DNA from: Paenibacillus sp.
GTDB lineage: Bacteria; Bacillota; Bacilli; Paenibacillales; YIM-B00363
Length of the DNA: 64,000 nt
Reading direction: 5' to 3'
NCBI RefSeq assembly: GCF_035645195.1
Contig: NZ_DASQNA010000037.1
Span: 62,001 to 126,000 of the forward strand
Both the position numbers and the translations under genes were made by a program. Below, one piece after another: positions 56,023 to 64,000 of the stretch (position 1 is its first letter; each line of letters starts with the position of its first letter). The notes below the pieces were generated by a model. That model was not told the DNA's origin and did not search any database. It saw only the letters and a list, made by a program, of their open reading frames with translations.

Positions 56023-56177
56023 GGTCCATGAGCCTCCCCAATGAGTTTGTACTATGTATACGAGCCTCCCGGGGTTTTATAACCACTTTTTGTCCACCTC
56101 CCGCGAAAAAGACTTGCCGCCTCGCGACGCGGGCATACTAAAACTCGTCATTTTGATCAGAAAAGGGGTTCGTGCGG

Positions 56178-56708
56178 ATGAAATACAGCTTGGATAGCGC
56201 GAAGGTAGCCGCCGCGACGAAGGAATGGCTCGAAAAGCGGAACGTGCGGACGGAGGAAATCGCGGAGCTTGTCTTGTTTTTGCAAGGGGAGTATATCCCG
56301 GGGCTGACGCTGGACGACTGCAAGGAAAGCGTGGAGCGCGTGCTGGAGAAGCGCGAGGTGCAAAACGCGGTGCTGACGGGGATTCAGCTCGACATGCTGT
56401 GCGAGCGCGGACAACTGTTCGAACCGCTGCAGGACATGGTCAAATACGATGAGGGCTTGTACGGAGTAGACGAAATCGTGGCGCTGTCGATCGTGAACAT
56501 CTACGGCTCGATCGGGCTGACGAATTTCGGCTATATCGACAAATTAAAGCCGGGCGTGCTGAAGCGGCTCAACGACAAAAACGACGGCTTCATCCACACG
56601 TTCCTGGACGATATCGTCGGCGCGATCGCCGCCGCGGCGTCGAGCCGCATCGCGCATACGCGCACGGCGGTGCTGCCCGTGCCGGAAGAGCCGGAGCCGG
56701 CGCGATAA
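56178..56708 (+). CDS. phosphatidylglycerophosphatase A family protein (YutG-like)
   Basis: 176 residues. The PgpA-family core is visible as LYGVDEIVALSIVNIYGSIGLTNFGYIDKL and NDGFIHTFLDDIVGAIAAAASSRIAHTR; the C-terminus is acidic/proline-rich. AAAAGGGG is nine bases before the ATG at 56178, so the GTG six bases earlier is rejected. Members are annotated as phosphatidylglycerophosphatases, but the Firmicute branch lacks the membrane helices of E. coli PgpA, and low-temperature or other roles have been suggested; treat the activity as tentative. Confidence 0.85.
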   Translation: MKYSLDSAKVAAATKEWLEKRNVRTEEIAELVLFLQGEYIPGLTLDDCKESVERVLEKREVQNAVLTGIQLDMLCERGQLFEPLQDMVKYDEGLYGVDEIVALSIVNIYGSIGLTNFGYIDKLKPGVLKRLNDKNDGFIHTFLDDIVGAIAAAASSRIAHTRTAVLPVPEEPEPAR

Positions 56709-56728
56709 CCACGCGCCGACCCGCGCGT

Positions 56729-57721
56729 CTACCTCCCGCCCGCTGCCGCGTAGCGGACGGCTGGTTCCTCTTCGACGACGACGATGCGCCCGCGCCGCTC
56801 CAAATACGCGAGATGCGCCAGCGTCTCCGCCAGCGCGAACCGAAGCTGATGCACGGACAGCTTCTCGCCGAACAGAGTCCGGCACAGCGCGTACCCCGTC
56901 ATCGGCTCCGCGAGCAGCGACTCCATCCGGGCGAGCCGCTCGTCGTGGTGCGAGCGGATGGCGCGGACGCGCGCTTCGTAATGCCCGAACGGCTCGCGAT
57001 GGCCCGGGAACGCCTGAACGACCGGCAGCTCCGCCGCTTCCTCGAGCGACGCCATGTACGTCCCGAGCGGATCGGCATCGCCGAACGGCAGCAGCGACAC
57101 GTTCGGCGTAATGCCCGGCAGCACGTGGTCGCCGCAAAACAGCCGTCCGGTCGCTTCGTCCCATAAGCTGAGATGTCCCGCCGCGTGGCCGGGCGTATGC
57201 AGCGCGGCGTAGCTCCGGTCGCCGAGCGCGACGGCGTCGCCGTATCGAACCGTCTCCGTGCGCGCCGGCGCCGGAGACACCATCGGCACGAAGCCGGCCA
57301 AATGCCCGCGCATCGCCTCCCGCCCCTCGGCGGGGTAGCCGTGCCGCTCGAACAGCGCCAGCGTCTCCGCCGCCGTGCGCTCCGCGCTCGCGGGTCCCCA
57401 CAGCGTATCCGCCTGCTCTCTGGCGACGGCCGACAGCCGCACCGGCGCGCCGGTAAGCTCCTGCATCCATCCCGCAAGGCCGTAGTGGTCGGGATGATGA
57501 TGCGTCAGCACGATCGAACGGACATCCTCCCATCGGAAGCCGACCGCGTTCGCCGCCTCCCGCCAAACCGTTTCCGCCTCCGGCGTGCGCAGTCCCGGAT
57601 CGACGATGTCGACGACGCCGCGCTCCCCTTTCACGACATACGCATTCACCCACAACAACGGAAACGGCAGCGGCACCTTCACCTGCCATATGCCGTCCCC
57701 GCGGTCGATGTATCTCTCCAT
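56729..57721 (-). CDS. MBL-fold metallo-hydrolase
   Basis: 330 residues with metal motif LTHHHPDHYG (H74, H76, D78, H79), HTPGHAAGHLS, and FCGDHVLPG, all glyoxalase-II-like ligands present. The C-terminal 90 residues are a helical, winged-helix-like domain (ESLLAEPMTGYALCRTLFGE to FALAETLAHLAYLERRGRIV) seen in the LACTB2-like group, which also has nuclease members. Its ATG overlaps the methyltransferase stop (TAATG), so the two are coupled. Substrate unknown. Confidence 0.9.
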   Translation of the reverse strand: MERYIDRGDGIWQVKVPLPFPLLWVNAYVVKGERGVVDIVDPGLRTPEAETVWREAANAVGFRWEDVRSIVLTHHHPDHYGLAGWMQELTGAPVRLSAVAREQADTLWGPASAERTAAETLALFERHGYPAEGREAMRGHLAGFVPMVSPAPARTETVRYGDAVALGDRSYAALHTPGHAAGHLSLWDEATGRLFCGDHVLPGITPNVSLLPFGDADPLGTYMASLEEAAELPVVQAFPGHREPFGHYEARVRAIRSHHDERLARMESLLAEPMTGYALCRTLFGEKLSVHQLRFALAETLAHLAYLERRGRIVVVEEEPAVRYAAAGGR

Positions 57722-58461
57722 TAGACGTCTTCTCCTTTGCATCCGACGAGGATGAGCCGCTTCGAGCGCGCTTCCTCGTAATCGGATCCGTCATAATCGC
57801 CGAACGCGCGCAGGAGCGTCAGGCCAGCGCCCTTCAGCATCCGCACGAAATCGGACAGCTCGTACAATTTGACGCGCTCCTCGTACGTTCTTGCAGAGGC
57901 GCCGCGTTCGCTCACGCGAATCGTCTTGACGACGCAGCCGGCTTGGATCGTTCGCGTTTCTTCAATATAAAGAGGTCCGTCCCTCTTCGTCGATCTCGGC
58001 ACCAGATGTTCCTTCGTATACGATGGATTTAAGAAGTCGATGACGAACCGTCCGCCGGGACGAAGCAAGCGATGCATCTCGCGCAGCACCTTCTCGTTCT
58101 CGGCGTCCGACTCGAAATAGCCGAAGGAGGTAAATAAATTCAATACGGCATCGAAACGTTCGGCGAGCGGAACGGCGCGCATGTCGCCTCTCACCCAGCG
58201 AATGCCGTTAGGCTCGCGCTTTCGCGCCACCGCCAAGAGCGTTTCGGACAAATCGACGCCGACGACGCTGTAGCCGAGCCGCCGGAGCACGACCGAGTGA
58301 CGGCCGGTGCCGCAGCATAAATCCAGCACGCTCGCCCGCGGTGGCAGCCGGAGCCAAGCCGACATCGCGCGAACCTCGTGTTCCGCCCCTTTGACGTCCC
58401 GGTGCTTGTACACCGCCAAATAATCTTCGCAAAAGGTTCGCTCGTACCATGGCTTATTCAC
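57721..58461 (-). CDS. class I SAM-dependent methyltransferase
   Basis: 246 residues. SAM-binding motif SVLDLCCGTGRHSVVLRRLG, acidic loop VVGVDLSETLLA, and FDAVLNLFTSFGYF; a beta-rich insert follows. Start is GTG at 58461 (MNKPWYERTF) with a weak GGTGG site; the next Met is far into the fold. Coupled to the MBL hydrolase. Substrate cannot be read; a small molecule is more likely than protein or RNA from the domain layout. Confidence 0.87.
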   Translation of the reverse strand: MNKPWYERTFCEDYLAVYKHRDVKGAEHEVRAMSAWLRLPPRASVLDLCCGTGRHSVVLRRLGYSVVGVDLSETLLAVARKREPNGIRWVRGDMRAVPLAERFDAVLNLFTSFGYFESDAENEKVLREMHRLLRPGGRFVIDFLNPSYTKEHLVPRSTKRDGPLYIEETRTIQAGCVVKTIRVSERGASARTYEERVKLYELSDFVRMLKGAGLTLLRAFGDYDGSDYEEARSKRLILVGCKGEDV

Positions 58462-58602: not shown

Positions 58603-58827
58603 TCAAATGTTCAGTTCCCCGAGCCTGATCAGCTCCACAACCGCTTGAGAACGGCCTTTGACATTCAGCTTCTGCATCACGTTGGAAATGTGATTGCGTA
58701 CGGTTTTTTCGCTGATAAACAGCAGCTGGGCAATGTCTCTGGTCGTTTTGTCTTGAACCAGCAATTCGAACACTTCCCGTTCGCGGTTCGTCAGCAGGAA
58801 CTTATTTCGGTGGTCGTTACCCTTCAA
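58603..58827 (-). CDS. gerE: GerE, late mother-cell sporulation regulator
   Basis: 74-residue LuxR/FixJ-type helix-turn-helix without receiver domain: LLTNREREVFELLVQDKTT, then IAQLLFISEKTVRNHISNVM, KGRSQAVVELIRLGEL, nearly identical to B. subtilis GerE along its length. The start is taken as TTG at 58827: AGGAGG lies ten bases upstream, and the length then equals that of B. subtilis GerE; a GTG at 58836 would sit one base from the ribosome site. GerE controls late spore-coat genes. A good sigma-K promoter lies upstream. Confidence 0.96.
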   Translation of the reverse strand: MKGNDHRNKFLLTNREREVFELLVQDKTTRDIAQLLFISEKTVRNHISNVMQKLNVKGRSQAVVELIRLGELNI

Positions 58828-58885
58828 GTGCGTCACCCCTCCTTGCTCGGGATTTGTTTTACAAGGTTAAGGGATACAGTCACCA

Positions 58886-58991: not shown

Positions 58992-60434
58992 TTAACGCGT
59001 GCTGTCGAGCGTGCCCGCTTGCGCGTTGTTCAGCGTGCCGGCTTCGACGCCGCCGTCGACCGTATGACGCGGGTTCGACCGGTCGAAGCTGTTGTCGAGC
59101 CGTCGCGTCACGCCGTTGCGGTTGCGCTGATCGTAGCCGTTCAAGTCATAGCGATTCGTGTCGGTCTCGCGGAACATGCGGTGGACGAAGGCGTTAAAAT
59201 CGTTCAACGGCTGTTGTCCGCCGCGCCTGTTCAATCGTACCGAATAACTGCTCAACCGGCGCATAAACTCTCGGTCCGCGCTCACGTACACGTTCCGGAC
59301 GTTCGGCGCGAGAGAACGAACGACGCTTTCTACTCGCGCCCGCACCTGCGAGCTGAGCGTATCGTGCGCATTGTACGAGCTTAAGCTGCCGTATGCCCCG
59401 CCGTTGTACATGTAGCGATGCGAAGCGTCTTCCGGATACGGGCCGTTCATCCCCGTGCGGTTCATGATGCGTCCGGACAATCCGCGGTACTGCGTTCCGG
59501 CGTTCGCGCGGGATCCGCCGACGCTGCCGGACTGCTGCGCGTTCATGCCGCCGACGCTGCCGGACTGCCCCGCGTTCATGCCGCCGACGATCCCCGAATT
59601 GACGCCGTACCCGCCGAACGAACCGTTGCTGGTGCTCGCCGTGCCGCCGCTCATCCCGGAGACGCCCCCGGTCGTGCCGCCGGCGTTCATGCCCGTGCCG
59701 GCGACGCCGCCGGCGTTCATGCCCGCTCCTGTACCGCGGGTCCGGCTGCCCGTGCCTCTGCCGGTATCCATGCCGGTGACGCTGCCTTCGATCGGACCGC
59801 CCCCGACGTTCGTGTCGGCGTTCGCTCCCCCGCGGCCTCCGCCGAACATGCGGCCCAGCCCGCTCAAGAATCCTCCGGGCTCGCGATCTCCGCCGGAATA
59901 CCCGCTAATTTCGGAACCGCCGTTCATCCCGAGCCCCGGAGTCCGCTGATTCAAACCGTACATGTTCGGCGCGGCCGCCATGGAGCCGACGTCGTTCAGT
60001 CCGAACGTGCCGGCGCCCGTCGTGCGTTGACCGCGTACGCTCGGGAACGCGCGGCTGTCGGTATTGCCGTAATAATTGCCCCGAATGCCCCATTCCGAAG
60101 CGTTCCGGCTCAATCGGGCGTTGCTGCCGCCGAGCGCCGTGCCGCGCCCCGCGTTATTGTTCAGTTCCACCGCGACATAAGCGTTCGTTTCGCCCATGAC
60201 GACGCGAGCGCGCGAGATGCCGTCGATGCGCTCGATCGCGCGGGCCATTTCTTGGTTCGCGCGCAAATTGCGATTGGTATGAGTGCCATACTGCTGCATC
60301 GAGGCGTTGCGGCCGACCGTATTCGTGCGGTACCCGTTTTGGGACATTTCATCGGCTGCGGGTTGTCCTCCGCAGGCGGCCATCGCGACGACGGAGGCGC
60401 CGATGACAGTGAAGCGCAGTAGCTTTTTCAGCAT
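58992..60434 (-). CDS. expanded YhcN/YlaJ-family sporulation lipoprotein
   Basis: 480 residues. Signal peptide with lipobox MAAC (Cys21). The first half of a YhcN/YlaJ domain is at about 48-95 (NQEMARAIERIDGISRARVV, NAYVAVELNN). The second half is at about 340-415 (LSSQVRARVESVVRSLAPNV, VYVSADREFMRRLSSYSV). Between them lies a region of more than 200 residues rich in Gly, Met, Asn, Ser and Thr with tandem MNAGQSGSVGG-type repeats. Typical members are 150-250 residues, so the insertion more than doubles it. A sigma-G-like promoter lies upstream. Related B. subtilis proteins are in the spore inner membrane or cortex region. The repeat's function is unknown. Confidence 0.85.
   Translation of the reverse strand: MLKKLLRFTVIGASVVAMAACGGQPAADEMSQNGYRTNTVGRNASMQQYGTHTNRNLRANQEMARAIERIDGISRARVVMGETNAYVAVELNNNAGRGTALGGSNARLSRNASEWGIRGNYYGNTDSRAFPSVRGQRTTGAGTFGLNDVGSMAAAPNMYGLNQRTPGLGMNGGSEISGYSGGDREPGGFLSGLGRMFGGGRGGANADTNVGGGPIEGSVTGMDTGRGTGSRTRGTGAGMNAGGVAGTGMNAGGTTGGVSGMSGGTASTSNGSFGGYGVNSGIVGGMNAGQSGSVGGMNAQQSGSVGGSRANAGTQYRGLSGRIMNRTGMNGPYPEDASHRYMYNGGAYGSLSSYNAHDTLSSQVRARVESVVRSLAPNVRNVYVSADREFMRRLSSYSVRLNRRGGQQPLNDFNAFVHRMFRETDTNRYDLNGYDQRNRNGVTRRLDNSFDRSNPRHTVDGGVEAGTLNNAQAGTLDSTR
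59515..59580 (-). repeat. two tandem 33-bp repeats in the YhcN/YlaJ insertion
   Basis: Units 59515-59547 and 59548-59580 differ at only two positions and encode MNAQQSGSVGG and MNAGQSGSVGG; a third, degenerate unit follows toward 59600. Further GTGMNAGG repeats are coded at about 59680-59725. Such repeats are prone to length variation between strains. Confidence 0.85.
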
Positions 60435-60595: not shown

Positions 60596-60955
60596 TTAGC
60601 TTTTCCGCTGCCGCCGCTTGCCGCCGCGGCCTGTTCCCTTCGTCTCTCGCTTCTCCTTCTTCCCTTTCTCCTTCATCGAAGAAGACTTCGCGGGCCCCCG
60701 CGCGGCCGACCGCGCCGTTCGCGAGACGACGTTCCCCGCCGCGGCCGCCCGCACGAGCCAATCGGCGGGCGCCGCGCACTTCGCGAGCGCCTTCAGCGCT
60801 TCCGGCCGCGAGGCGATCTCCCGGGCGAGGGCGGGGTCCGCTTCCGCCGCGTCCGCGATCGCCGCGAAGATGCGGTCGACCGCTCGCCGGCTGCGGAGCA
60901 CCGCCGTCAAATAATCTTGGATGACCGATCGCCGCAGCTCCTCGTGCGTCCTCAC
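60596..60955 (-). CDS. small protein of the ugd/ATP-grasp operon, basic tail
   Basis: 119 residues, GTG start overlapping the previous gene's stop (GTGA). Residues 1-75 are helical (RRSVIQDYLTAVLRSRRAVD, AAIADAAEADPALAREIASR); the last 35 are Lys/Arg/Gly-rich (KSSSMKEKGKKEKRETKGTG), apparently disordered and likely to bind nucleic acid or an anionic polymer. I do not recognise a family. Last gene of the operon; followed by a weak hairpin and the sigma-G-like promoter of the YhcN/YlaJ gene. Confidence 0.72.
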   Translation of the reverse strand: MRTHEELRRSVIQDYLTAVLRSRRAVDRIFAAIADAAEADPALAREIASRPEALKALAKCAAPADWLVRAAAAGNVVSRTARSAARGPAKSSSMKEKGKKEKRETKGTGRGGKRRQRKS

Positions 60956-61287
60956 GCGCCGTCCCCTCCGCCGAGCAGACCGGATCCGGAGAACGGGTCG
61001 ACGGCGTCCTCCTCCTCGAGGAGCAGCCGCAGATGGGTCGCGAGGCCGGATTCGAACTTCGTCATACCCTGAAGCAGTTCAATCATCTGATGATGGAACG
61101 CGCACGATTCCATGACGATCCGGTCGGCGTCGCTCTCCTCGGCCAGCTTCGGATGGGCGGTATGCAGCACCCAATCGCGCAGCGTTTCCATTTCCGTCGC
61201 CTTCGCCTCGAGAATGTCGGCCACGCGCCATTGCATATGAGCCGCCGCGGCGAGCAGCCTGAGGCCCGCTTCCGTTCGCACCGACAA
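60952..61287 (-). CDS. small helical protein of the ugd/ATP-grasp operon
   Basis: 111 residues, all-helical (GLRLLAAAAHMQWRVADILE, MIELLQGMTKFESGLATHLR) with a Gly-rich tail (FSGSGLLGGGDGA). Start is TTG at 61287 or GTG at 61281: GGAG lies nine bases before the former and GAGAGG six before the latter, so the exact start is open. No catalytic motif. It overlaps the next gene's start by four bases. Function unknown. Confidence 0.72.
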   Translation of the reverse strand: MSVRTEAGLRLLAAAAHMQWRVADILEAKATEMETLRDWVLHTAHPKLAEESDADRIVMESCAFHHQMIELLQGMTKFESGLATHLRLLLEEEDAVDPFSGSGLLGGGDGA

Positions 61288-61314
61288 CCTCTCCAGCTCC
61301 TTTCCGTTCTGCTT

Positions 61315-61602
61315 TTATTCTTCTTCCGCCACGCGCAGCTCCTTAATGGCGTGCTTTACGAAATCCGCGAGCGCCTCCTCAAGGTCCGCCAGCGCGTTCA
61401 CATACCCGGCGATTTCCCGCGCGACGGACAGCTCCGCCTCCGTATACGGATCCCCTTTGACCCGCTTGAGGTCCTCGACGGGAACTTTGCGGAGCAGCGC
61501 CGCCATGCGCCGGACGACCGCGCTCTCCGCGTCGAGCGCGCGGCCGAGCTGCTCCTGCGATTTCGCGAACGCGAGCAGCTGTTCATCGATTAAATCCTGC
61601 AT
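61315..61602 (-). CDS. small coiled-coil-like protein of the ugd/ATP-grasp operon
   Basis: 95 residues with strong AGGAGGG before the ATG. Helical with heptad-like spacing (MQDLIDEQLLAFAKSQEQLG, ELSVAREIAGYVNALADLEE); acidic at the end. No family recognised. It lies 18 bases after the ATP-grasp gene and is followed by two more small helical proteins, so the three may form one complex. Confidence 0.75.
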   Translation of the reverse strand: MQDLIDEQLLAFAKSQEQLGRALDAESAVVRRMAALLRKVPVEDLKRVKGDPYTEAELSVAREIAGYVNALADLEEALADFVKHAIKELRVAEEE

Positions 61603-61620
61603 TTCCGCGTCCCTCCTCTC

Positions 61621-62823
61621 CTAGCCCTCCGCCGCCGACGTCGAGAGGACGATCGCCTCCGGCCCGGATTCCTCAGGGCCCACCGCAAGGAAGATCCTCT
61701 CCGACCCGGCTTCCTCCGGGGCCCCCGCGAGAAAAGCCATTTCCGAGGGAGCTCGCTGCTCCGGGACGGCCTCCTCCCGGCCGCGGCGCAGCAGCGCCGC
61801 GGCGTAACGGACCGGATTCGCGAACGTAGCCTTCCATACGTCGCGCTCGCCGGCGTTGCGGAACGTGATGCGCAAATCCCGGAAGTTCGCCTCGATAAAC
61901 CACGGATGCCCGCTCTCGTCGAGCGCGATGTCGAGACCCAAATCCGCGATGGGAGGCAGACTCCGCTCGAGCGCCGCGGCGATCCGCACCCCGAGATCGG
62001 CGATGTTCGCCCGCATCTCGTCCTCGTTCCAGCCCCACTCCCCGAACAGTTTGGACACTTTGATCGACTTGCCGCCGCAGTGCAGATTGGTGACGATCGA
62101 ACGCGCGCGCGCCACTTTGCCGACCATGCCGGTGCACTGCCACGCCCCGTCCTCGCCGCGCTGCACGGAGACGCGAAAATCGACGGGGCTGCCGCGGTAC
62201 CGCATGAGCGCGATGCCCTGCTGCGCCAAGTAGGCGAGCCGGCGGGCGCGCACCAGCTTCACGATTTGGCGGACGCCGAGCCGCCGCCGCTTCGTCCGCC
62301 CGAGCGCGTTAATGTCGGCGAACGTCTCGTCGTCGACGCGGCTGACGCGGATGATGCCGAATCCGACGGACGCGTGCGCGGGCTTGAGGTACAGCGTGCC
62401 GTGCTCGCGCAGCAGCGCTTTAACCTTGCGGCGGCCGACCGACGCCGTCTCGGGCAGGTGCGGCAGCAGCGTTTCGTCCTTCGCCAGCATCCGATGGACC
62501 TCCAGCTTCGAGACGACGTTGCGTTCGTTGCACACGCGCTTGCCGAGCCGCGTCAGCCGCCGGATCGAACGGCGCGCGGACGCGCGCGTCGTCCGGGTCC
62601 GGTTCAAGATGACGTCGGGAATCGGCCGCCGCTTCCATACCGGATCGACGCCGTTCCACCCCGTCGCCGTGCCGCGTTTCCAATCGATATCCTCGAGCGC
62701 GAAGAAAAACATGTTCTCCCCCGCCTTCCGCGCCGCTTCGACATAGAAGGAAGGCCTTTCGAACGAGCGGCCTCCCCGCATGAGCCGAACGATCAGCTCG
62801 CGGGGATACAGCATGCCGATCAT
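61621..62823 (-). CDS. YheC/YheD-family ATP-grasp protein
   Basis: 400 residues. ATP-grasp ligase fold with central KVKALLREHGTLYLKPAHAS (ATP-binding Lys), FRVSVQRGEDGAWQCTGMVG, and the metal-binding end DLGLDIALDESGHPWFIEAN. The C-terminal 50 residues are variable and acidic. The ATG at 62823 overlaps the epimerase stop as ATGA; upstream Arg-rich codons are ignored. YheC/YheD of B. subtilis are spore-coat-associated; the reaction is not known. Here it is tied to UDP-sugar genes, so it may ligate an amino acid or similar group to a sugar-containing polymer (inference). Confidence 0.88.
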   Translation of the reverse strand: MIGMLYPRELIVRLMRGGRSFERPSFYVEAARKAGENMFFFALEDIDWKRGTATGWNGVDPVWKRRPIPDVILNRTRTTRASARRSIRRLTRLGKRVCNERNVVSKLEVHRMLAKDETLLPHLPETASVGRRKVKALLREHGTLYLKPAHASVGFGIIRVSRVDDETFADINALGRTKRRRLGVRQIVKLVRARRLAYLAQQGIALMRYRGSPVDFRVSVQRGEDGAWQCTGMVGKVARARSIVTNLHCGGKSIKVSKLFGEWGWNEDEMRANIADLGVRIAAALERSLPPIADLGLDIALDESGHPWFIEANFRDLRITFRNAGERDVWKATFANPVRYAAALLRRGREEAVPEQRAPSEMAFLAGAPEEAGSERIFLAVGPEESGPEAIVLSTSAAEG

Positions 62824-63812
62824 GGCTTCACCTCCGAACCGCCGACGGAGCCTGCGGAACCTCCGCCGCCTCCGTACAAGCGCACGATGTACTCCCACTG
62901 CCGCGCCATCCCTTCCGCGAGCGGCACCGACGGCTTGTAGCCGAGCTCCGCCTGCGCCAAGGCGACGTCCGCCCGCGTCACGTACGGGTCGCCCGGCTGC
63001 GCGGGCAGCCGCTCGATCGCGAGCGGTTTGCCGGCCAGCCGTTCGATTGCCGCCAGCACCTCGTTCACCGACGCGGTCTCGACGCCGCCGACGTTAAAGA
63101 CGGTGCCGTGCTTCGGATAGCCCATCGCCGCGACGTTCGCGGCCACGAGATCGGCGACGTACGTGAAGTCGCGCGTTTGGTTCCCGTCGCCGTACACCGG
63201 GATCGGCTCGCCGAGCAGCGCCGCCTTCATGAAGCGGTGGAACCCCATATCGGGGCGCTGCCGCGGCCCGTACACGGTGAAATACCGCAGCGCGGTGTAC
63301 GGCACGCCGAACTGGCTATAATACACGTGGCACAGCTGCTCGCCGGCCAGCTTCGTAAGCCCGTAAGGCGAAATCGGCCGCGTCGGAGACGACTCCGACA
63401 TGACCGCCCCGACGCCGCCCCCGTACACCGAAGACGAAGAAGCATAGACGAGCTTCTTCAGAGAAGACGACCGCTTGCACGCCTCGAGCAGCTTCTGCGT
63501 CAGCAGCACGTTGGCGTCCAAATAGTCGGCGAACGACGCCCCCCAGCTGCCCCGAACGCCGGCGATGCCGGCAAGGTGGAAGACGGCGTCTGCGTCCGCG
63601 ATCAGCGCGTCGAGATCGATCGCCAGCAGATCGGCCGCCGTCCATCGAAACCGCGGATGCGCAAGCGCTTCGCGCAAATTGTCTTCCTTGATCAAGCGAT
63701 CCGAGCGATGCCCGATATGATCGACGCCCACGACGTCGTGCCCGCTCTGCAGCAGCGCTTCGGCGAGATGGGAGCCGATGAAGCCGGCCGCCCCCGTGAT
63801 GACGATCTTCAT
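62820..63812 (-). CDS. NAD-dependent nucleotide-sugar epimerase
   Basis: 330-residue extended SDR. NAD motif VITGAAGFIGSHLAEALL, catalytic Ser/Tyr/Lys in YASSSSVYGGG and SPYGLTKLAGEQ, substrate loop LRYFTVYGPRQRPDMGFHRF. The closest functional type by eye is UDP-glucose/UDP-glucuronate 4-epimerase. The ATG at 63812 has AGGAGG eight bases upstream and overlaps the ugd stop. With Ugd it could convert UDP-glucose to UDP-glucuronate and then UDP-galacturonate. Confidence 0.92.
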   Translation of the reverse strand: MKIVITGAAGFIGSHLAEALLQSGHDVVGVDHIGHRSDRLIKEDNLREALAHPRFRWTAADLLAIDLDALIADADAVFHLAGIAGVRGSWGASFADYLDANVLLTQKLLEACKRSSSLKKLVYASSSSVYGGGVGAVMSESSPTRPISPYGLTKLAGEQLCHVYYSQFGVPYTALRYFTVYGPRQRPDMGFHRFMKAALLGEPIPVYGDGNQTRDFTYVADLVAANVAAMGYPKHGTVFNVGGVETASVNEVLAAIERLAGKPLAIERLPAQPGDPYVTRADVALAQAELGYKPSVPLAEGMARQWEYIVRLYGGGGGSAGSVGGSEVKP

Positions 63813-64000
63813 CGCCCGTTCCTCCTTGCCACGCCGGCGTACCGAAAGCCGAGGGACGTCAACGCTTCGGCGTCCAAGAAATTGCGGCCGTCGAACACGG
63901 CCGGCTCCGCCGCCCGCGCGGCCCAGTCGCTCCACGGCAAATCGCGGAACTGCCGCCACGGCGTCGCGAGCACGATCATGTGCACGCCGTCGGCCGCCGC
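63809..64000 (-). CDS. UDP-glucose 6-dehydrogenase, C-terminal end only
   Basis: The window cuts this minus-strand gene; only the last 63 residues are present. The translation reads from ADGVHMIVLATPWRQF through VFDGRNFLDAEALTSLGFRY to a short basic tail, which matches the UDP-binding C-terminal domain of UDP-glucose/GDP-mannose dehydrogenases (DGRN...GFRYAGV). The TGA overlaps the epimerase ATG. UDP-glucose 6-dehydrogenase is the most likely member; GDP-mannose dehydrogenase cannot be excluded from this piece. Confidence 0.82.
   Translation of the reverse strand, partial: AAADGVHMIVLATPWRQFRDLPWSDWAARAAEPAVFDGRNFLDAEALTSLGFRYAGVARRNGR

Follow-up and report, generated by a model that had tools for sequence, protein, structure and literature searches.

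What are three small genes without a recognisable motif doing at the end of an operon of sugar-nucleotide enzymes? The question is raised by the final 3.4 kb of a 64,000-nucleotide stretch of DNA from Paenibacillus sp. (assembly GCF_035645195.1, contig NZ_DASQNA010000037.1, positions 62,001 to 126,000), here called the window, where the 3' end of ugd, an epimerase gene, an ATP-grasp gene and three short genes, which we refer to as sp1, sp2 and sp3 and collectively as the triad, are transcribed in that order from the minus strand. A first-pass annotation had proposed that this would be a new system, which makes UDP-uronate and in which an ATP-grasp ligase modifies a spore or surface polymer with the small proteins as scaffold or carrier. 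The observation itself is confirmed, although it rated the small genes too low and the enzymes too high: novelty belongs to the triad, which is an undescribed, order-wide sporulation module of the Paenibacillales, and not to the sugar-enzyme half, which is of the ytdA-ytcAB-cotS/ytaA cluster type already described from Bacillus (PMC2860764).

In the window, sp1 (61315-61602) encodes an acidic protein of 95 aa with a predicted helix-loop-helix hairpin, sp2 (60952-61287) a protein of 111 aa with a long helical hairpin and a Gly/Asp-rich tail, and sp3 (60596-60955) a protein of 119 aa with a basic tail. The good starts credited to all three hold fully for sp1 alone, sp2 starting with TTG (a GTG follows two codons further) and sp3 with GTG; likewise, the spacing of 18 to 27 bases fits the gaps from the ATP-grasp gene to sp1 (18 nt) and from sp1 to sp2 (27 nt), and not sp2 and sp3, which overlap by 4 nt. 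A single-sequence search of 8 genomes of the family found sp1 and sp2 in 6 and sp3 in 5, and a divergent sp3 in the sixth was recognised later by its position and sequence; 4 of 5 relatives from the same genus conserve all three reading frames side by side, and a second genus of the family does so for sp1 and sp2. With a profile, sp2 was detected in 250 of 296 Paenibacillales genomes, almost always as a single copy, and nowhere outside the order: the matches in a class sample (25 of 299 genomes) and a phylum sample (6 of 378) were all order members. Sampled Bacilli outside the order gave no convincing relative of sp1, the one marginal match (G472, 8e-4) lying within a 662-aa frame. Chance open reading frames are thus ruled out by the conservation of sp1-sp3 among relatives and by the order-wide occurrence of sp2, which also rules out a set of genus-restricted small genes. 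No Pfam family matched consistently across 47, 58 and 45 members of sp1, sp2 and sp3, respectively, nor did any NCBIfam model match sp2; PF04672, the best recurrent match of sp1 (best E 0.0011), was judged spurious. A search of the available literature on the triad genes, and on the WIAG-tail proteins discussed below, turned up nothing relevant.

The arrangement of the genes is nearly constant. A scan of a named genome collection yielded 80 triad loci, nearly all from Paenibacillus with a few from Cohnella and Fontibacillus, and order and strand were identical in 79, with sp1 always first; in the remaining locus sp1 was not detected. The 4-nt overlap of sp2 and sp3 recurs in 60 of these loci. 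In twenty further loci, which represent additional families and genera of the order, the arrangement was the same, except that sp1 was not detected in one and sp3 was missing from another. In Cohnella faecalis (L116:9971-10600) the sp2 frame extends to 210 aa over the sp3 region, possibly through a frame change or an alternative frame.

Both gene content and upstream sequence tie the triad to sporulation. SpoIVA (PF09547) was found in 281 of the 296 genomes of the order, and sp2 was present in 250 of these 281 and in none of the 15 spoIVA-negative genomes (Fisher p ~8e-14, shared ancestry ignored). Sigma-K promoters have the -10 consensus CATANNNTA and a -35 AC about 16-17 nt upstream. Directly upstream of sp1, the pattern CATANNNT[AG] occurred in all 20 of a set of loci taken from many genera other than that of the window, against a background of 4% in random windows and 11% before other genes of the same loci; it was also present in 76 of 79 named loci. 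The final -10 base of this pattern was widened to A or G after a first look at the sequences; the strict -10, CATANNNTA, was found in 9 of the 20 diverse loci and 26 of the 79 named ones. In 47 of 59 distinct upstream sequences the -10 was preceded by an AC at a distance of exactly 17 nt, with a variable spacer (AC-N17-CATANNNT). No sigma-E or sigma-G pattern was found upstream of sp1. For the family, then, the element upstream of sp1 matches the sigma-K consensus as far as sequence can tell, and sigma-K itself probably transcribes the triad. Within the window's genus, where sp1 comes shortly after the ATP-grasp gene, it has no sigma-K-type element of its own.

What accompanies the triad across the order is the whole spore glycan island, and not Ugd or the ATP-grasp gene. 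Named loci of ~20 kb contained a median of 9 glycan-type genes and at least one in 79 of 80, whereas three stretches of 18 kb, taken from the window as controls, lacked all of these families. The content of the island is very variable and the triad constant; CgeB-type and other glycosyltransferases and WIAG-tail repeat proteins are among its genes. In a common layout of the named loci, a WIAG-tail repeat protein, several GT2 genes, a nucleotidyltransferase, a GT-D and a further GT2 lead to sp1-sp2-sp3, followed by two CgeB-like glycosyltransferases, a GT4, wecB-, pseB/fnlA- and rmlD-like genes, an epimerase and a GT2. The wecB/pseB(fnlA)/rmlD-like trio suggests that a donor of the N-acetylfucosamine (FucNAc) or N-acetylquinovosamine (QuiNAc) kind, an amino-deoxysugar, is made. 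In several lineages a gene for a FabH-like ketoacyl synthase, named from its sequence, stands on the opposite strand just past the triad (e.g. L075:4644-5666; also near the triad in L059, L062 and L064), within 700 nt in 8 of the 80 named loci.

The ATP-grasp gene of the window (61621-62823, 400 aa) is of the YheC/YheD type, as first read (PF14398, 3.4e-61; 207 bits, cut-off 26.8). Its place in one operon with the triad was seen in the window's genus only, and the survey of named neighbourhoods rejected both it and Ugd as conserved in-operon partners of the triad. The ATP-grasp gene is still enriched on the island, a divergently oriented paralog lying 6-10 kb upstream of the triad in at least 20 of the 80 named loci, a lower bound, as the flanks end at 10 kb. 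Thus the link of the small genes to the ATP-grasp gene does reach beyond the genus, contrary to the outcome that was to refute the first-pass annotation, and it is one of island co-location, not of a conserved operon. A single tandem array accounts for many of the about 10 YheC/YheD copies (9-15) that spore-forming genomes carry; of the spoIVA-negative genomes, two were examined and had 0 and 4. One array of about five paralogs is at G000:C7:93574-99249, with equivalents in other genomes.

The WIAG-tail proteins (NF012201) were found in 269 of the 296 genomes of the order and gave no match in 14 control genomes including B. subtilis. In 39 genomes, a hand-copied list of linked cases and not a rate, the triad is preceded on its own strand by a WIAG-tail gene at a distance of 4-62 kb. 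Giant repeat proteins with the WIAG-tail domain head many glycan islands (e.g. L065, L066, L068, L070 and L071), with reading frames often of 1,500-2,500 aa and up to ~4,600 aa; we regard them as candidates for spore-surface fibre proteins. Four genomes of one family (G014, G021, G025 and G028; family f8) have spoIVA and WIAG-tail proteins and lack sp2; comparison with them could show, without any engineering, what the triad contributes.

The enzyme half has a clear precedent. In Bacillus, ytaA/cotS are found alongside paired glycosyltransferases and the genes ytcA, ytcB and ytdA, for a UDP-glucose dehydrogenase, an epimerase and a nucleotidyltransferase, respectively, and B. subtilis cotS and ytaA share a promoter under sigma-K/GerE control (PMC2860764). 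YtaA was also the first bacterial spore kinase (BSK) whose structure was solved (2q83). Beyond the end of the window, the operon continues upstream on the same strand with genes for a GT-D-type glycosyltransferase (PF22882), a GT2, a GT4 and a BSK-family kinase (L005 of the source genome), and farther out come oppositely oriented GT4 genes and a nucleotidyltransferase gene; this gene order is retained in three close relatives (L024-L026). The kinase (L005:12868-13959) has YtaA as its closest solved relative (2q83, 8.6e-24) and an APH domain (2.7e-17). Three related GT4-type proteins, with ~37-46% mutual identity over their shared part, flank it on both sides and appear to form a glycosyltransferase pairing of the CotSA/YtcC kind, and the Ugd, epimerase and nucleotidyltransferase genes are all nearby. 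The Bacillus ytdA/ytcA-ytcB-ytcC/cotSA/cotS-ytaA cluster is therefore matched in its tight clustering of a BSK kinase, related glycosyltransferases, Ugd, epimerase and nucleotidyltransferase; the window's operon, which adjoins gerE, adds to the described cluster (PMC2860764) a GT2, a GT-D, the ATP-grasp gene and sp1-sp2-sp3. A wider comparison is with the B. subtilis sps, yfn and cge loci (PMC7439481), late mother-cell loci which likewise combine glycosyltransferase and nucleotide-sugar genes; B. subtilis ytdA-ytcABC, too, is counted among those that give the spore surface its form. The Paenibacillales islands contain genes that we class as CgeB-like by their domains (DUF3880 and Glyco_trans_1_2), not by a direct comparison with CgeB, and differ from the B. 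subtilis loci in sp1 and sp2, for which the sampled Bacilli beyond the order gave no convincing relative.

The ugd end in the window (63809-64000, stop at 63809, remainder outside) occupies the YtcA position of this cluster type; the gene, a UDP-glucose 6-dehydrogenase gene, was named from its own sequence and the first-pass call, and is complete in the source genome at L005 8810 to ~10140. The NAD-dependent sugar epimerase gene (62820-63812; PF01370, 5.7e-60) is in the YtcB position, and the ugd/epimerase and epimerase/ATP-grasp junctions each have the 4-nt ATGA overlap that had been pointed out. The closest solved relatives of the epimerase are 6zl6 (2e-93), which we take to be the UDP-glucuronate 4-epimerase of B. 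cereus, the PDB title reading merely "epimerase domain-containing protein", and MoeE5 (1.5e-66). It is probably a UDP-glucuronate 4-epimerase, and since these two are its nearest relatives, the likely donors in the window's species are UDP-glucuronate and UDP-galacturonate, in keeping with the UDP-uronate synthesis proposed at the outset.

The proteins themselves are small, and helical where modelled. AlphaFold2 models give two-helix hairpins for sp1 (helices 2-37 and 55-94, mean predicted local distance difference test score, pLDDT, 75.2) and sp2 (helices 3-50 and 54-95, pLDDT 78.5), and sp3 presumably shares the fold. Over 58 sequences sp2 has 11 invariant columns, including Q19, L26-E27-A28-K29-A30, W39 and H65. 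The mean net charge of sp1 and sp2 is about -9.5, that of sp3 +2 as a family average and +16 in the window; the Lys/Arg-rich tail noted at first does end sp3 in the window's genus, whereas elsewhere a G-x-P-x-x-P-W motif takes its place. Hydropathy gave no membrane segment in any of the three. When profiles of sp1, sp2 and sp3 built from diverse alignments were compared with one another, the scores were 39, 39 and 35; a second alignment set gave 42 for sp1-sp3, 27 for sp2-sp3 and 22 for sp1-sp2, each above reversed and column-shuffled controls (shuffle maximum 15.6-19.7). Based on the second set, the homology of sp1 and sp3 is firm at the profile level, and sp2 is probably a paralog of both, by a weaker link. 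No solved relative of sp2 was found by profile, and the match of sp1 to a designed coiled coil (4.5e-4) was taken as coiled-coil similarity.

The explanation that we tentatively favour, at close to even chances, is that the triad is a mother-cell accessory module that organises spore-surface glycosylation in the Paenibacillales. This reading arises from the combination of a fixed trio of probably helical proteins, presumably made late in the mother cell, that is always found amid interchangeable glycosyltransferases. Late in sporulation, sigma-K in the mother cell would transcribe sp1-sp2-sp3, usually from the triad's own promoter and, in the window's lineage, as the last genes of a ytc/cotS-type operon. 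The three proteins, probably homologous hairpins of which two are acidic and one is basic or neutral, would then associate into one helical bundle, which would hold or position the changeable glycosyltransferases and nucleotide-sugar enzymes of the locus, together with the acceptor, at the developing spore surface and thereby allow decoration of the outer layer. Complex formation, binding to the enzymes and an adaptor role are the steps that we infer. Here the first-pass annotation fared well in two respects: the small proteins may indeed be scaffold-like, and the spore-surface setting agrees with the spore glycan cluster genes, the sigma-K-type promoter and the absence of sp2 where spoIVA is absent.

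Several observations weigh against this explanation. Of the 15 spoIVA-negative genomes, 14 belong to one genus, and hence the independent losses are few; moreover, 31 spore-formers are without sp2, so that sporulation can do without it. In the window itself no match to a sigma-K promoter precedes sp1, and before the BSK gene at the head of its operon CATAGGTTG is kept in four genomes of the genus with no constant -35. The sp1-sp2 and sp2-sp3 relationships weaken when the closer named sequences alone are used. Foldseek returned nothing for sp2 and at best E ~7-9 for sp1, leaving the pair without a recognised structural relative, and a predicted two-helix hairpin tells little about function.

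The same evidence can be read in other ways. The triad proteins might be building blocks of the outer spore layer, part of its coat or crust, and not organisers of glycosyltransferases: they are small, highly conserved and helical with sigma-K-type timing, and the proteins of that layer are themselves largely unrecognised in the order, cotE alone among the B. subtilis cot genes having been found in P. polymyxa (PMC11278568). We consider this rather unlikely, as the tight embedding of the triad in enzyme islands better fits an accessory role. Many coat proteins are Cys- or Ser/Thr-rich, in contrast to sp1 and sp2, which average 0.03 and 0.7 Cys per protein and are not rich in Ser or Thr. Were the ATP-grasp enzyme instead a ligase that modifies a spore polymer, with the small proteins as carrier or scaffold, as the first-pass annotation had it, it might couple amino acids or peptides to a polymer that contains uronate. 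One could then account for the shared operon in the window's genus, for the divergently oriented paralog near at least 20 of the 80 triads despite just ~10 copies per genome, and for the low copy numbers in the two spoIVA-negative genomes. Most triads, however, have no ATP-grasp gene in their operon, the sp1-sp3 alignments revealed no acyl-carrier-like site with a conserved Ser, Lys or Cys, and the substrates of YheC/YheD are not known, so that this proposal appears quite improbable. Small regulators carried with the island, such as anti-sigma or transcription accessory factors, would also be small and helical, and the basic sp3 tail of the window's genus could suit them; the strong acidity of sp1 and sp2, the constant linkage to biosynthetic genes and the lack of a DNA-binding or regulatory family match in Pfam (sp1-sp3) or NCBIfam (sp2) make such a role very improbable.

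A further alternative draws on streptococci, where Asp1-3/Gap1-3 are accessory proteins of serine-rich-repeat glycoproteins and adhesins. Like the triad, they form a constant accessory set beside variable glycosyltransferases and a giant repeat protein; they are different proteins that differ in size, compartment and transport route, and the likeness that we draw is one of logic. By this analogy, the triad could be a chaperone or trafficking set that keeps the giant WIAG-tail protein encoded upstream soluble during glycosylation. The same-strand linkage in the 39 listed genomes speaks for it, as does the joint occurrence of the two, with WIAG in 242 of the 250 sp2 genomes (odds ratio 5.8 among spore-formers, p=0.008). 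Such a dedicated role is nonetheless improbable, given 8 genomes with sp2 and no WIAG, ~26 spore-formers (counted by elimination) with WIAG and no sp2, one genus (g23) in which the two are far apart, and the window's genome itself, where WIAG is on a different contig. A bolder extension of the accessory-module explanation, which we hold possible and on balance doubtful, is that a three-part complex, derived from one duplicated hairpin, is the constant core of a Paenibacillales-specific spore-surface glycosylation machine and links the giant WIAG-tail fibre proteins of the spore with an interchangeable set of glycosyltransferases.

Among the Paenibacillales are species used as crop inoculants, others that spoil food, and the agent of American foulbrood; spores are the means by which all of them spread. 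Outer-coat proteins of B. subtilis are almost all unrecognised in this order, and the triad is a specific candidate for part of the missing machinery. It also provides a conserved handle by which the variable glycan islands can be located and compared across the order. Being near-universal, fixed in gene order, tied to glycan islands and apparently under sigma-K-type control, it should allow the candidate role to be tested readily.

Downstream of the triad, the window retains the sporulation neighbours that had been named at first. A gene for a YhcN/YlaJ sporulation lipoprotein (58992-60434, minus strand; PF09580, 4.3e-15; TIGR02898, 1e-17, under the model cut-off) is followed by gerE, the late mother-cell regulator (58603-58836, minus strand; PF00196, 1.4e-22), which has 98.7% identity among same-genus relatives and keeps its synteny in three of their loci (L023-L025). 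Past gerE (56172-58461) lie class-I methyltransferase-like and metallo-beta-lactamase-fold genes and, on the opposite strand, the gene of a conserved 178-aa protein, neighbours that are shared with several relatives.

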